Shown in pieces: positions 27,256 to 32,211 of a DNA stretch of 64,000 nt. Within the stretch, counting starts at the first letter, position 1. Each line of letters begins with the position of its first letter. This DNA comes from Pleurocapsa sp. CCALA 161 (GTDB taxonomy: Bacteria; Cyanobacteriota; Cyanobacteriia; Cyanobacteriales; Xenococcaceae): the NCBI RefSeq assembly GCF_003003995.1, contig NZ_PVWF01000011.1:1-64000 (forward strand), read 5' to 3'. The translations under genes were made by a program, and so were the position numbers. The notes under the pieces were generated by a model that made no database searches, was not told the DNA's origin, and worked only from the letters and a program-made list of their open reading frames with translations.

Positions 27256-28743
27256 TTAATAGAGTTCCGCATCTTTAAACTGCTGAATCTTCTGGGCATT
27301 AGCTGCTTCTCCACAACTACGAGGAGTGGGAAAGATTTTATCTGGATTAGCCAGTCCTTTTTTGTTTAGTGCCGTGCGTACATACTGCATGGTTTCTAGA
27401 TCGGTAGAGTTGAACATATAGGGCATATAGCAGTTTTTATCTGCACCAATACCATGCTCTCCCGATAGACTTCCTCCTGCATCCACACACAGCTTGAGGA
27501 TCTCTCCCCCAATTTCCTCTACCGTAGCAAAAGCTCCTGGCACAGCGTTATCGTAAAGAATCAACGGATGAAGATTACCGTCTCCTGCATGAAATACATT
27601 GGCGATTTTATAACCATAGCGATCGCTTAAGGCATTAATTTCTGCTAGCACTTCTACCAGCTTGGTACGGGGAATCACTCCATCCTGAACAAAATAATCA
27701 GGACTCATATGTCCCGCTGCTGCAAAAGCAGCCTTTCTTCCCTTCCATAGTTTGGCGCGAGTATCAAGATCTTCGGCACTAGTAATACCTGTAGCATTGT
27801 GTTTTTGGCAGATCGCCTCAACTCTGGTGCGATAAGCTTCCACCTCTACTTTTAAACCGTCTAATTCAACTAATAATACTGCTGCCGCTTGGCGATCATA
27901 GCAACCTGTATTGACAATATCCTCCACAGCATTAATGCTCAGGTTATCCATAATTTCCATCCCCGCTGGAATAATACCCGAACTAATAATTTCGGCTACC
28001 GCAGCCCCCGAATCTTCCACAGTCGGAAAGTTCGCCAATAAGACAAATACCGATTCAGGGCGCTTGAGGATTCTTAGCGTAATTTCAGTAGCAATACCCA
28101 AAGTCCCCTCAGAGCCGACAAATAGACCTGTTAGATCGTATCCAGGCATCTCACCGATCATGCCTCCGACATCAATAATCTCTCCTTCGGTAGTGACTAG
28201 CTTCAAACCTAAAACATGGTTAGTAGTTACACCATACTTGAGACAATGAACTCCCCCAGAGTTTTCCGCCACATTCCCGCCAATCGAACAAATAATCTGA
28301 CTTGAAGGATCGGGAGCGTAGTAAAAACCTGCTCCACTTACCGCCTGAGTTACCCAGTTGTTAATTACCCCTGGTTGCACAGTAATACAGTGATTATCTA
28401 AGTCTTGAGCGATGATTTGATTCATTCTCGCTGTCACAATTAGCACCCCCTCCCCGTGAGGCAAGGCACCCCCAGATAAACCTGTCCCTGCACCTCTAGC
28501 AACCCACGGTATATTGTTGTCATGGCACAATTTAACCGCAGCAGCCACTTCTTCTGTAGTACGGGGTAAAACTACCACGGCAGGACGCTGACGATAGCTT
28601 GCCAAACCATCGCATTCATATGTCAGCAGTTCTTCCCTACGGCGAACAACACCATCCTTACTAACTATAGTTTCTAACTGTTTAATAATCGGTTGCCATT
28701 TGTCTTGAGTACCTGAAAAAAGCTTGTTTAATCTCATCGCCAT
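27256..28743 (-). CDS. glcD: Glycolate oxidase/dehydrogenase FAD subunit GlcD
   Basis: 495-aa FAD-linked oxidase. The PCMH-type FAD domain has VVLPRTTEEVAAAVKLCHDN, ARGAGTGLSGGALP and GNVAENSGGVHCLKYGVT. The C-terminal substrate domain ends with VFHAGDGNLHPLILYD and LSGEHGIGADK, both classic GlcD motifs. It oxidises glycolate formed by photorespiration to glyoxylate. glcE and glcF, the partner subunits in E. coli, are not next to it, as is usual in cyanobacteria. Upstream lies a decayed WD40 fragment on the same strand. Confidence 0.93.
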   Translation of the reverse strand: MAMRLNKLFSGTQDKWQPIIKQLETIVSKDGVVRRREELLTYECDGLASYRQRPAVVVLPRTTEEVAAAVKLCHDNNIPWVARGAGTGLSGGALPHGEGVLIVTARMNQIIAQDLDNHCITVQPGVINNWVTQAVSGAGFYYAPDPSSQIICSIGGNVAENSGGVHCLKYGVTTNHVLGLKLVTTEGEIIDVGGMIGEMPGYDLTGLFVGSEGTLGIATEITLRILKRPESVFVLLANFPTVEDSGAAVAEIISSGIIPAGMEIMDNLSINAVEDIVNTGCYDRQAAAVLLVELDGLKVEVEAYRTRVEAICQKHNATGITSAEDLDTRAKLWKGRKAAFAAAGHMSPDYFVQDGVIPRTKLVEVLAEINALSDRYGYKIANVFHAGDGNLHPLILYDNAVPGAFATVEEIGGEILKLCVDAGGSLSGEHGIGADKNCYMPYMFNSTDLETMQYVRTALNKKGLANPDKIFPTPRSCGEAANAQKIQQFKDAELY

Positions 28744-28775
28744 TGCTGCATTATCTGAATTTACCCCTACTTACC

Positions 28776-28976
28776 TCAGTTTAATGATTTTTGAAGAGAA
28801 TCAAGCGATTTTGATTCATGCTTTAATAATCTAATATTTCCTTGATTACATCCAGTAGCTAATATTTAACTATCAGGACTATATGTAACTGCTCTAATTT
28901 TTTCATGATGATCATGATGATTTATAGTTGAGATTAATTTATCTATAGTTAAGGAACTATTAATTCCTTGACACAA
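28776..28976 (-). pseudogene. Decayed WD40-repeat gene fragment
   Basis: Read on the minus strand, the spacer upstream of glcD translates as HHDHHEKIRAVTYSPDS, stop (28866-28868), ILATGCNQGNIRLL. Apart from the stop this is a recognisable WD40 repeat (H..K-I-R-A-V-x-Y-S-P-D-x-x-x-L-A-T-G-x-x-x-G-x-I-R-L). The same frame is open upstream to about 28976 (LTIDKLISTIN) and ends at 28776. No start codon with a ribosome site is visible and only one repeat survives, so this is a remnant of a WD40 protein gene, not an active gene. Confidence 0.6.
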
Positions 28977-28978
28977 AT

Positions 28979-29344
28979 ATGATCAAGAATCTTGCGCCAA
29001 ATATTTTTCGACAGCGATTACTAATCGAAGGTTTCTACACTATAGATGTTGACAAAAAGAGTATAGAGAAATATCTCTTTAATGTCGCCGAACATTTAGG
29101 GTTAAAGACGTATGGCAACCCGATCATCTTTGCGCCTGCTTCAGGTATGGGTAAAAAGGAAAATACGGGATACGATGCATTTATTCCCTTGATTGACTCT
29201 GGCATCTCAACCTATTTTTGGAGCGAGGCTAAGTTTTTTTCAATTGTTATATACACCTGCAAGGGTTTTAATGAGCAAGCAGCAATTGGTTTTACCAGAG
29301 AATATTTTGCTGTATCTAGTGAAATAGCCAGTGTCTCCTTTTAA
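28979..29344 (+). CDS. SpeD-like pyruvoyl-enzyme homologue (AdoMet decarboxylase family)
   Basis: 121 aa. The N-terminus RQRLLIEGFYTIDVDKKSIE matches the start of the class 1B S-adenosylmethionine decarboxylase fold. The segment D73-S74-G-I-S-T-Y79-F-W81-S-E lines up with the SpeD autocleavage loop E-S-H-L-T-I-H-T-W-P-E, and Cys94 falls exactly 13 residues after the Trp, as the catalytic Cys does in SpeD. The self-cleaving Ser is kept, Glu before it becomes Asp, and the processing His68 becomes Tyr79. It may be a pyruvoyl decarboxylase for another substrate or an inactive homologue. No spermidine-synthase gene is nearby. It converges with the EcsC operon. Confidence 0.7.
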   Translation: MIKNLAPNIFRQRLLIEGFYTIDVDKKSIEKYLFNVAEHLGLKTYGNPIIFAPASGMGKKENTGYDAFIPLIDSGISTYFWSEAKFFSIVIYTCKGFNEQAAIGFTREYFAVSSEIASVSF

Positions 29345-29478: not shown

Positions 29479-30102
29479 TTATTTTTGAGCCGATTTTTGA
29501 TTAAAAAGCTGGAACAGTTTTTGCAGATCAAAATCATTCCAACTCAAAGCAACTGAAGTTTCAATCATTAATTCTCCCTGTTTTAGGCTAGTTATCAATG
29601 TTGACTCATTTTTCAAACTAGAAAAAAGAGCTTCTATAAGCTGTGATTGATTTCTAGGAAGAGCATAGTAAACTTTATCTGCTTCAACTCTAACACCTTC
29701 TGGTAATTTCCCATTAGGAATTTTGCTACCTAAAAAGTTCTGCCAACCAGCGATCAGATAACGGTAAATAATAGAATCGGTGTAAAATTCAGGAGGTGTT
29801 AATAAACGAAGTTCCCCTTCAATACTATTCTCATTAAGAGTTATTTTTTCAGGAGTAAAATGTATTTTTACTTGAACTTTTTTATGTTCTACTGTGGCAA
29901 TTAGTCCTTCTGATAAATCAGGTTCTAAACTTTTTAATTGTTCAACCTTAGAAACAGCTTGTTGACAAAAGAGTAAAACGGTTTTTTTCTTTAATATCAA
30001 TTGCTTACTTTCTGGACTAAATAAAATATACTCTTTGATCATTTCTGTAAGAATTTGTTTTGATTCTTGAACCGTTGTTTTAAGTCTGTTAAATATACTC
30101 AT
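29479..30102 (-). CDS. Hypothetical protein, third gene of the EcsC operon
   Basis: 207 aa. I do not recognise it. The N-terminal 40 residues are helical and basic (MSIFNRLKTTVQESKQILTE). A beta-rich middle follows (LIATVEHKKVQVKIHFTPEK, then ITLNENSIEGELRLLTPPEF), then GVRVEADKVYYALPRNQSQL and a helical C-terminus (WNDFDLQKLFQLFNQKSAQK). There is no signal peptide or membrane helix. It starts 80 bp after the EcsC gene on the same strand with no intervening hairpin, so cotranscription is likely and a shared role with EcsC is inferred. Confidence 0.7.
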   Translation of the reverse strand: MSIFNRLKTTVQESKQILTEMIKEYILFSPESKQLILKKKTVLLFCQQAVSKVEQLKSLEPDLSEGLIATVEHKKVQVKIHFTPEKITLNENSIEGELRLLTPPEFYTDSIIYRYLIAGWQNFLGSKIPNGKLPEGVRVEADKVYYALPRNQSQLIEALFSSLKNESTLITSLKQGELMIETSVALSWNDFDLQKLFQLFNQKSAQK

Positions 30103-30182: not shown

Positions 30183-30821
30183 TTACGAAGCTTTAAATAA
30201 TTTTTTGGCAGTTTTTCCACAGCTATTCACAAATATGCCATCAAAAGTCCCTCCAACAACACCTCCAACTAAAGGCACCATTTTCATGAGATTTACAGCA
30301 CCTTTTTCACCAGCTTTTGTAATTAGTCGAAATCCAATCTTTTTATTAATTTCAATTAGAACCTTACCAGGTATTTGCTTGATTAGGTTTTGGCACATCT
30401 TTGTACCAATCGCAATTCCTGCATTTTTAAGAATCTCTTCACCAGCTTCACCTATCAGGCATAACAGAATCATTGTTCTTACTTGTTCCGAATGAATGTC
30501 ATATCCTCGAAGGTAAGCTATTGTAGCAACAGTATTAGCTGCTAGCGCGTAAGACGTAGCTACACCTGCTGGAATGGTAATGGGCATTGCAGCAATACCG
30601 CCTAATCCAGCAATAAAACCAGTACCCGCAGCATACGTAGTTCTCCAAGCAATAACTGAATTAATGGCCTCCTCAACGCTAGCTGATTTACTCAAGTGGT
30701 CTTCTGCAACCTGCTTGGCAGATGGCAAAATTCCCAACCCATTAATTCCAGCGTCGGCAATCCACTCAAGAGTTGTCTGTATCAGATTGCTTTTATCGTT
30801 GTCTATGTTAGTTGAAACCAT
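30183..30821 (-). CDS. EcsC family protein
   Basis: 212 aa. Family features are an N-terminal amphipathic stretch, WRTTYAAGTGFIAGLGGIAAMPITIPAGVATSYALAANTVATIAYL read in segments as a Gly/Ala-rich hydrophobic region (about 58-103), the G-Y-D-I-H-S-E-Q-V-R segment, and the C-terminal MVPLVGGVVGGTFDGIFVNS. B. subtilis EcsC is the third product of the ecs ABC-transporter locus, and its function is unresolved. Here there is no transporter; the gene is the middle of a three-gene unit with two small unknown proteins. Likely membrane-associated. Confidence 0.8.
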   Translation of the reverse strand: MVSTNIDNDKSNLIQTTLEWIADAGINGLGILPSAKQVAEDHLSKSASVEEAINSVIAWRTTYAAGTGFIAGLGGIAAMPITIPAGVATSYALAANTVATIAYLRGYDIHSEQVRTMILLCLIGEAGEEILKNAGIAIGTKMCQNLIKQIPGKVLIEINKKIGFRLITKAGEKGAVNLMKMVPLVGGVVGGTFDGIFVNSCGKTAKKLFKAS

Positions 30822-30880: not shown

Positions 30881-31306
30881 TTATTGAGACTTGGCAATAG
30901 CTATAGCCATGTTTTGTAATAAATTTTCTTCTTGCTTTGCGCTCAAAATTTTACTTTTAATCAAATCTACGGTAGCATCAAATTTGTAGGTTTCTTTTTC
31001 AAACTCCACCATTATTTCTGCACCTTGGCAGTTTAAAGCTGCTCTCGCTTTTTCAAGATTTTTCAGTTTTTTAAAAGTGCATTCACCAACAGTTCCACTA
31101 ATATTACCTACAGCATCAACAGCACCTTTTCCAATATCCATAACACCTTCTAGTGTTCCTGAAACAACTAAACCTGTAAACCATAAAGGAGATGTTAAGC
31201 TTAAAGCCACTTTATTTCCTACACCTTTAGTTTCAAATCCTTTAACAACTGAGTCAGCAAATTTTTTAGTTAATTCCATAATCTTTAAACCAAATACATT
31301 AATCAT
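30881..31306 (-). CDS. Hypothetical protein, first gene of the EcsC operon
   Basis: 141 aa from the ATG at 31306, or 132 from a second in-frame ATG at 31279; neither has a strong ribosome site. The N-terminal half is amphipathic and glycine-rich (KGFETKGVGNKVALSLTSPL, then LVVSGTLEGVMDIGKGAVDA), resembling the Gly/Ala membrane-interacting segments of EcsC. The C-terminal half is charged and helical (EIMVEFEKETYKFDATVDLI). No family recognised. Gap to EcsC is 59 bp on the same strand, so it is probably the promoter-proximal gene of the unit. Confidence 0.7.
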   Translation of the reverse strand: MINVFGLKIMELTKKFADSVVKGFETKGVGNKVALSLTSPLWFTGLVVSGTLEGVMDIGKGAVDAVGNISGTVGECTFKKLKNLEKARAALNCQGAEIMVEFEKETYKFDATVDLIKSKILSAKQEENLLQNMAIAIAKSQ

Positions 31307-31674: not shown

Positions 31675-31929
31675 ATGTCATATCACGTTACAGCAGACTA
31701 TGCCCGTAAAAACTTTAATGAAATTATTCAACGAGCCAAGATTGAAGCCGAAGGAGTAACAATAGTCAAAGACAATCAAAGCTTTGTACTAATCGATCAA
31801 GAAGAATTAGAAGCCTTGATTGAAACTGCTGAATTGCTTCAACTTCCTGACATATTGACAGATGTATCGCAAGCAAGAAAAGAATATCAACAGCAAGAAA
31901 CTTTAACCATGGAGGATATATTTGGTTGA
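31675..31929 (+). CDS. Type II antitoxin, Phd/YefM family
   Basis: 84 aa. The N-terminal DNA-binding domain reads MSYHVTADYARKNFNEIIQR, the Phd/YefM pattern in which a beta strand is followed by A-R-x-x-F-x-E-I/L. Next comes VTIVKDNQSFVLIDQEELEA and a C-terminal toxin-wrapping tail (QLPDILTDVSQARKEYQQ). It would neutralise the RelE/YoeB-like toxin encoded directly downstream and autoregulate the operon. The toxin frame starts inside its last codons. It remains intact although the toxin frame is broken. Confidence 0.88.
   Translation: MSYHVTADYARKNFNEIIQRAKIEAEGVTIVKDNQSFVLIDQEELEALIETAELLQLPDILTDVSQARKEYQQQETLTMEDIFG
31911..31915 (+). promoter_or_regulatory. Ribosome-binding site for the toxin frame
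   Basis: GGAGG, a full Shine-Dalgarno core, lies inside the antitoxin gene 6 nt before TTG 31922. It supports that TTG as the toxin start and translational coupling to the antitoxin. Confidence 0.6.
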
Positions 31930-32190
31930 AGACACTCCTAAGTATCAAGTTCGATTTAGCAAAAAAGCTCAGAAAGATATTGCAGAATTAACTGAGAAAC
32001 AAAAAACCAAGCCAAGCAAATTTTAGAACAAGTTATTGCTGTTAATCCTCATCGTGGAAAAGCCTTAAAGGGCAAGTTAAAAGGTTTAAATTCTTATAGA
32101 TTGAATCGCCAAGAGCGAGTTTTGTATGAGATTTACGAAAAAGACAAGACTGTTTTAATTATTACGGCTAGAACTCATTACGGAGAATAG
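31922..32190 (+). pseudogene. RelE/YoeB-like toxin gene broken by a 5-bp tandem duplication
   Basis: The frame starts at TTG 31922, overlapping the antitoxin stop by 8 nt, and reads LVEDTPKYQVRFSKKAQKDI then AELTEKQKTKPSKF before a stop at 32024-32026. The tandem CCAAG-CCAAG at 32007-32016 explains it: removing one copy restores a continuous 87-residue product in which EKQKTKQILEQVIAVNPHRG joins KALKGKLKGLNSYRLNRQER and VLYEIYEKDKTVLIITARTH, ending at 32190. That is a typical RelE/ParE-superfamily toxin ribonuclease with basic residues and the C-terminal R-T-H-Y. As written it is non-functional. A recent slipped-strand event or a sequencing error are both possible. Confidence 0.8.
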
Positions 32191-32211
32191 GTGAGAACAA
32201 TATATACAGCA

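Follow-up and report, generated by a model that had tools for sequence, protein, structure and literature searches.

A short gene in the 64,000-nucleotide stretch of Pleurocapsa sp. CCALA 161 DNA analysed here (the window) encodes what is, by profile match and predicted structure, a protein with the fold of AdoMet decarboxylase (SpeD). Our preferred reading, to which we give a probability of roughly 0.45, is that this protein belongs to a SpeD-fold subfamily of its own, which is patchy in its distribution, is carried in part on plasmids, and probably still uses Ser/Cys (pyruvoyl-type) chemistry, acting on a substrate other than AdoMet. The proposal of a non-AdoMet substrate is made because Pro71 is absent in 17/17 members, Glu72 is not conserved and a normal SpeD is present in the host. 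A first-pass annotation had left two alternatives, a changed substrate and a loss of processing, and the former now appears the likelier of the two.

The open reading frame begins with an ATG, a start backed by relatives that share the same start position, and encodes 121 amino acids plus a stop (product P0001):

28979..29344, plus strand, SpeD-like open reading frame, recognised by its Pfam match, its predicted fold and relatives beginning at the same place

The reverse complement of 28979-29344 is not open, as stops break a single-frame reading. A promoter scan at the gene found 5 sites, where shuffled sequence averaged 3.3, and no terminator was found there. The host genome is 5.37 Mb in 249 contigs, and a scan of genome contigs found an 88% identical relative (L038) in a Hyellaceae cyanobacterium metagenome assembly. 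Between a FAD-linked oxidase gene (27256-28743) and the SpeD-like gene sits a minus-strand remnant (28746-28976) with several stops that resembles a WD40-type repeat (IRAVTYSPDS*ILATG; the WD40 label is our own reading). On the other side are a minus-strand gene for an EcsC family protein (30183-30821; PF12787, 48.4 bits), adjoined by reading frames at 29479-30102 and 30881-31306 that have no Pfam match at E <= 0.01, and a plus-strand pair (31675-32200) made up of a Phd/YefM antitoxin gene (PF02604) and then a RelE/YoeB-like toxin frame, again so labelled by us, which is split over two reading frames.

Membership in the SpeD superfamily was seen by several routes. P0001 matched Pfam AdoMet_dc (PF02675) at 29 bits (gathering cut-off 25, E 1.5e-6), and PF02675 was matched by 16/16 full-length members of the subfamily, the window protein included, with no other Pfam family matched at E <= 0.01. 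In the genome search, 10/15 listed family places lay over the PF02675 gathering score, and the other five scored 22.5-24.2 bits. The best PHROGs assignment, phrog_3125 (AdoMetDC, E 7.7e-5), agreed with Pfam; the NCBIfam equivalog for AdoMetDC, TIGR03330, was not reached (16.1 bits vs. a cut-off of 75.65). An AlphaFold2 model built from a 58-row alignment of P0001, L038 and 56 viral SpeD-type homologues had a mean pLDDT of 89.9, and its best PDB match was T. maritima AdoMetDC (Z 15.2, rmsd 2.0, 107 residues). Because that alignment contained SpeD-type sequences, a control model was made with P0001 and L038 only. The control was of low confidence (57.0), its order of elements was unchanged, and the same five prokaryotic AdoMetDC chains came out on top, the best at E 2.6e-5 and the next chain at 0.019. 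Searches against PDB sequences gave no match to P0001 at E <= 10 with phmmer, and two weak matches to profile A3 (E 0.35 and 1.4) were judged to be due to chance. The homology to SpeD claimed earlier is thus borne out by the Pfam score and by the structure comparison, which found similarity of fold.

Active-site residues were read from a profile alignment of 17 family proteins, i.e., the window protein, 15 other full-length members and the member from G541. The comparison set was 184 other SpeD-fold rows, 58 from 50/50 bacterial loci and 126 from 96/96 viral loci; these rows are redundant, with overlapping loci and near-copies, so that counts among them show absence of exceptions and not independent events. 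The numbers of Trp70, Pro71, Glu72 and Asp79 were obtained by counting along from Ser63, His68 and Cys83 of PMC10407285, which fits the numbering of the AdoMetDC rows. The sites placed by the alignment in the window are:

28991..29029, plus strand, N-terminal motif L-A-P-N-I-F-R-Q-R-L-L-I-E, residues 5-17
29174..29176, plus strand, GAT, Asp66, at the T. maritima Ser55 position
29195..29197, plus strand, GAC, Asp73, the residue preceding the cleavage Ser, at the T. maritima Glu62 position
29198..29200, plus strand, TCT, Ser74, the predicted cleavage and pyruvoyl Ser, at the T. maritima Ser63 position
29213..29215, plus strand, TAT, Tyr79, at the position of the processing His68
29219..29221, plus strand, TGG, Trp81, at the Trp70 position by offset
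29246..29248, plus strand, Val90, at the Asp79 position
29258..29260, plus strand, TGC, Cys94, equivalent of the catalytic Cys83

The cleavage Ser was found in 17/17 members and 184/184 other rows, and the Cys83 column holds Cys in every aligned row except one, which is gapped there. Ser74, Gly75, Tyr79, Trp81 and Cys94 are fixed in 17/17 members, and the spacing in P0001 is that of the SpeD rows: 13 residues from Trp to Cys, 20 from Ser to Cys and 5 from Ser to Tyr. Reading the codons confirmed the first-pass description of Ser74, Trp81 and Cys94 at exact SpeD spacing, with Asp73 before the Ser and Tyr79 for His68; to it are now added two more changed sites, Ser55 to Asp66 and Asp79 to Val90, the N-terminal motif, the normal SpeD of the host and the subfamily itself. 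At the His68 column all 17 members have Tyr and all 184 other rows have His. The Ser55 column is Asp or Glu in 17/17 members vs. Ser or Thr in 184/184 other rows, and the Asp79 column is Val or Ile in 17/17 vs. Asp or Glu in 184/184. The residue before the Ser, in the Glu62 column, is Asp or Glu in 17/17 members, in a column that is less sure than the Ser, Tyr and Cys columns because hhalign prefers two compensating gaps. With those gaps Asp73 would be aligned with the Glu rather than the Thr of the SpeDC E-T-S; that alignment was set aside and the ungapped hairpin retained.

Two further columns bear on substrate. According to PMC10407285, one proline marks AdoMetDC, and the proline and four other residues separate the known activities. 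We took its AdoMetDC-vs.-ADC diagnostic proline to be Pro71 by inference. None of the 17 members has Pro there (Ser, Glu, Thr or Gln instead); Pro is present in 44/58 bacterial and 35/126 viral rows. The Glu72 column varies within the subfamily, and the one member of 17 with Glu is the window protein itself, which counts against our preferred reading. Outside the active site, the fixed N-terminal x-P-x-I-x-R-Q-R-L differs from SpeD: P7, I9, R11, Q12, R13, L14 and E17 are invariant in 16/16 full-length members, and the R13 column in other SpeD-fold rows is mostly His (54/58 bacterial, 101/126 viral). The 16 full-length members are as little as 41% identical in pairs, with 25/118 ungapped columns invariant; at that rate Ser, Tyr and Cys would all be fixed by luck about 1 time in 100.

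PMC10407285 describes Ser63, His68 and Cys83 as residues that T. maritima AdoMetDC cannot do without in self-processing. The human enzyme needs Ser229 for activation and His243, the equivalent of His68, for the second step, and its H243A form stalls as an ester; Ser55 is the T. maritima equivalent of Ser229, though S55A is still activated, and Glu62 is a possible general base for Ser63 (PMC3975893). In the AlphaFold2 model of P0001, a two-residue turn joins strands 64-71 and 74-81 into a hairpin. If residue 71 pairs with 74, then 66 faces 79, just as Ser55 faces His68 in SpeD, and the facing Ser-His pair would therefore be replaced by a facing Asp-Tyr pair. This Tyr79-Asp66 pairing is read from predicted strands only. 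On the model, the processing site appears rebuilt, with an Asp-Tyr pair introduced, the acid at 79 lost, and the cleavage Ser, the preceding acid and the Cys kept. The set of three coordinated replacements, at His68, at the Ser55 that faces it and at Asp79, suggests redesign rather than erosion.

A pathway consistent with these residues can be proposed. Asp73, or Asp66, would help Ser74 to attack the preceding carbonyl, forming an ester. The proton abstraction role of His68 would pass to Tyr79, lying opposite Asp66 in the hairpin of strands 64-71 and 74-81, the chain would split before Ser74 to give a pyruvoyl group, and Cys94 would reprotonate the decarboxylated product, which may enter an accessory pathway without need of a dedicated partner gene. 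Several points weigh against such a scheme. The characterised enzymes depend on His68 (His243 in human) for their processing (PMC3975893, PMC10407285), the fixed Ser and Cys could be structural instead, and no neighbouring gene points to a pathway (358 reading frames, 21 loci). In the aspartate decarboxylase PanD, a pyruvoyl enzyme with a Tyr near the site, this Tyr58 is dispensable for activation (PMC3975893). Among the matches listed in a search of the open-licence PMC literature (titles and abstract starts), there was no SpeD homologue with Tyr at His68, no processed Tyr-type SpeD and no such subfamily. The PanD fold differs from the SpeD fold.

Seventeen members were read, the window protein included, and in a tree of 116 columns 16 of them group in a single clade (100/99), the branch to which is 3.4 changes per column long; the clade spans cyanobacteria, another class and a gammaproteobacterial plasmid. 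Within the genus of the window there are three intact copies (G002, G003, G004) and two remnants (G011, G012). Other genomes of the same class contribute G111, G467, G471, G671, G682 and G609, a copy with a shortened 5' end (G541) and a broken one (G598), and another class of the same phylum contributes G384, G722 and G740, plus a copy in G427 cut by the contig end. At the thresholds used, and with the window genome and the remnants counted in, matches were found in 4/386 genomes of the phylum, 11/388 of the order, 4/194 of the class of G384 and 3/42 of the family of G111. In the window's own family 8/27 genomes matched, two of them (G017 and G020) with proteins of the ornithine-decarboxylase type with His. 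In the family of G384 6/10 matched; the subfamily is represented there by the G384 copy and by a single place in G427, and five weak places, scoring 27-31 bits, are in loci whose SpeD-fold rows all carry His. Three members are on plasmids, those of Nostoc sp. NIES-3756, Acaryochloris marina (pREC2) and the gammaproteobacterium Halioglobus pacificus. The patchy spread and the plasmid carriage suggest that the subfamily spread partly by horizontal transfer, and a point against this is that two of the three plasmids (Nostoc and Halioglobus) were typed as non-mobilizable, pREC2 being conjugative. The public record of the Acaryochloris plasmid member annotates it as S-adenosylmethionine decarboxylase, which is probably wrong.

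Phages were considered as a source and rejected. A tblastn search of 50,697 phage records with P0001 matched 11 of them, none better than E 6. With the Halioglobus member as query 9 records matched, the best at E 0.002, and all 7 that were annotated are phage AdoMetDC genes. A scan of viral_contigs with two peptide patterns (A2) gave 44 matches and no relative of the subfamily. In the same collection, profile A5 of the ornithine type has relatives in 373 viral stretches (80 were kept), and a search with one SpeD protein and different patterns gave 16.

Neighbouring genes were compared all against all (358 reading frames from 21 loci; distances were lacking for G011, G012, G471 and G427, where the central gene was not located), and no neighbour was common in a consistent place beyond close relatives, nor did any name a pathway. 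Neighbours in common were found mostly among close relatives, i.e., within the genus, between G671 and G682, and between G467 and G471. Several genes that are shared more widely, encoding pentapeptide-repeat (5 loci), deformylase-like, NB-ARC, integrase and SDR-reductase proteins by our reading, were rejected for their differing placement. Next to both the Acaryochloris and the G384 member lies a GNAT gene, which was also discarded; the one in G384 resembles, to our reading, the housekeeping RimI. As for SpeD itself, the host of the window encodes a normal one elsewhere (G000:C31). The normal SpeD of G671 (L072, G671:C137:6319-6624) reads with two internal stops, so that G671 may rely on other polyamine routes, unless these are contig errors. 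The two ornithine-decarboxylase-type homologues with ETSS...H, L007 (G020) and L050 (G017), are in genomes with a normal SpeD at another place. Three divergent SpeD homologues that have the His, L073 (G111), L074 (G471) and L075 (G467), lie 0.9-1.1 kb from an open frame of 480-520 amino acids with a SpeE-like domain.

The first-pass annotation had raised the possibility of an arginine or ornithine decarboxylase, as described for some SpeD homologues, and that the protein is a decarboxylase of the SpeDA or SpeDC kind with an unusual processing residue now looks unlikely. The subfamily profile is closest to that of the ornithine type, with a probability of 98.0, an E of 1.5e-13 and 27% identity across 86 columns (vs. 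probability 84.4, E 7.1e-6 and 17% identity for AdoMetDC), and subfamily and SpeDC rows have in common a longer loop with Y-G-x-P, besides the Ser and the Cys. The tree joins the subfamily to SpeDC at 90/50 on the 3.4-long branch; given that support, the long branch with its long-branch warning and the 116 columns, this was not accepted as proof of descent from SpeDC. In G384 there is no SpeE-like match at E <= 1e-10, the kind of anomaly by which PMC10407285 searched for its cases. Unlike SpeDC, however, the subfamily has Asp or Glu for the Thr before the Ser, Tyr for His, Val or Ile for the acid at 79 and Asp or Glu for Ser/Thr at 55, carries the N-terminal L-x-P-x-I-x-R-Q-R motif, and the subfamily protein ends in Phe without the C-terminal Arg. 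Of the SpeDC diagnostic residues, in columns we inferred from the SpeDC rows, Gln, Thr and Tyr are absent and Phe is present in 4/17, the window protein included; the Ser/His/Cys triad of SpeDA is incomplete for want of the His. Moreover, the SpeDA and SpeDC cases of PMC10407285 lacked canonical ADC or ODC, whereas canonical SpeA is over cut-off in 14/18 carriers, the window's genome included, though three of the 14 (G011, G012 and G598) hold only remnants of the SpeD-like gene. SpeA is below cut-off in G384, G722, G740 and G427, three of which have a weak match (68-71 bits). On the Nostoc and Acaryochloris plasmids, the genes annotated up to 12 kb away include no polyamine gene, the other loci having been covered by the shared-neighbour comparison only. 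The arginine or ornithine decarboxylase proposal is therefore not borne out for the kinds described, given the missing Thr, the Tyr at His68 and the carriage of SpeA. Class 1b AdoMetDC (T. maritima 1tlu/1vr7) agrees with the subfamily in fold, in Ser63, Glu/Asp62, Trp70 and Cys83 and in their spacing, but the subfamily is without His68, Pro71, Asp79 and Ser55, and has Glu72 in the window protein only.

The most serious competitor, which we consider a genuine though doubtful possibility, is that the protein is a pseudoenzyme, a proenzyme that never cleaves and that binds a small molecule or a partner as a sensor, activator or inhibitor. Replacement of a His whose human counterpart is needed for the second step (PMC3975893) is in line with this, and unprocessed SpeD-fold proteins are on record: the trypanosome prozyme (PMC5201418), the V. 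vadensis C-terminal domain (PMC10407285) and a Leishmania AdoMetDC-like protein (PMC3686867). Like the subfamily, the prozyme is a paralogue on the SpeD fold with a deviating catalytic set, and it may occur alongside a genuine SpeD. But the prozyme, which is without a pyruvoyl site and acts on a partner, and the V. vadensis domain are both described as being without key residues, while Ser74 and Cys94 are fixed in 17/17 members here. A role as obligate activator of SpeD is also counted against by two well-covered carriers, G004 (100% complete) and G384 (94%, one contig), which have no other AdoMet_dc match at E <= 0.01; the less complete G609 shows the same, and G598, with its broken gene and no AdoMet_dc match, has neither. 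Since G384 also gave no SpeE-like match at E <= 1e-10, an obligate partnership with SpeD or with SpeE looks unlikely. Processing might instead begin and fail to finish, leaving a stalled ester, or two chains with an N-terminal Ser and no pyruvoyl, in a protein acting as a Ser/Cys hydrolase or binder. The stalling of human H243A (PMC3975893) is in line with this, and Asp73 and Ser74 are perhaps enough for the first step; a stalled ester alone would not explain the fixed Cys94 and Tyr79, and we think this outcome improbable. The remaining explanation, a recently dead gene, is very improbable, even though remnants do occur: the G011 copy is truncated ahead of Tyr79, that of G012 is a fragment, and that of G598 is broken by an in-frame stop, with its Cys and Asp66 sites altered too, as expected if those sites matter only in working copies. 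Nei-Gojobori estimates on 11/16 full-length genes gave a value for 21/23 pairs (dN/dS 0.06-0.15; the two further pairs were saturated, and several with dS above 1 give rough ratios), which indicates that the window frame is a real gene. The window copy is full length, and its dN/dS against its three closest relatives is 0.13-0.15 (dS 0.40-0.97). Simple decay of the window copy is thus unlikely because of purifying selection and the fixation of Ser, Cys and Tyr in 17/17 members.

In sum, we favor a distinct SpeD-fold subfamily that probably keeps its pyruvoyl-type chemistry. A fuller statement, which we offer only tentatively, is of a SpeD-fold pyruvoyl family in which an Asp/Glu-Tyr processing pair replaces Ser/Thr-His-Asp, the substrate lies beyond AdoMet, arginine and ornithine, and spread has been partly by plasmid. 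A subfamily with Tyr fixed at His68, yet with the Ser and the Cys kept, would provide a natural test of what self-processing needs, and may be a candidate for a fourth activity on the SpeD fold.
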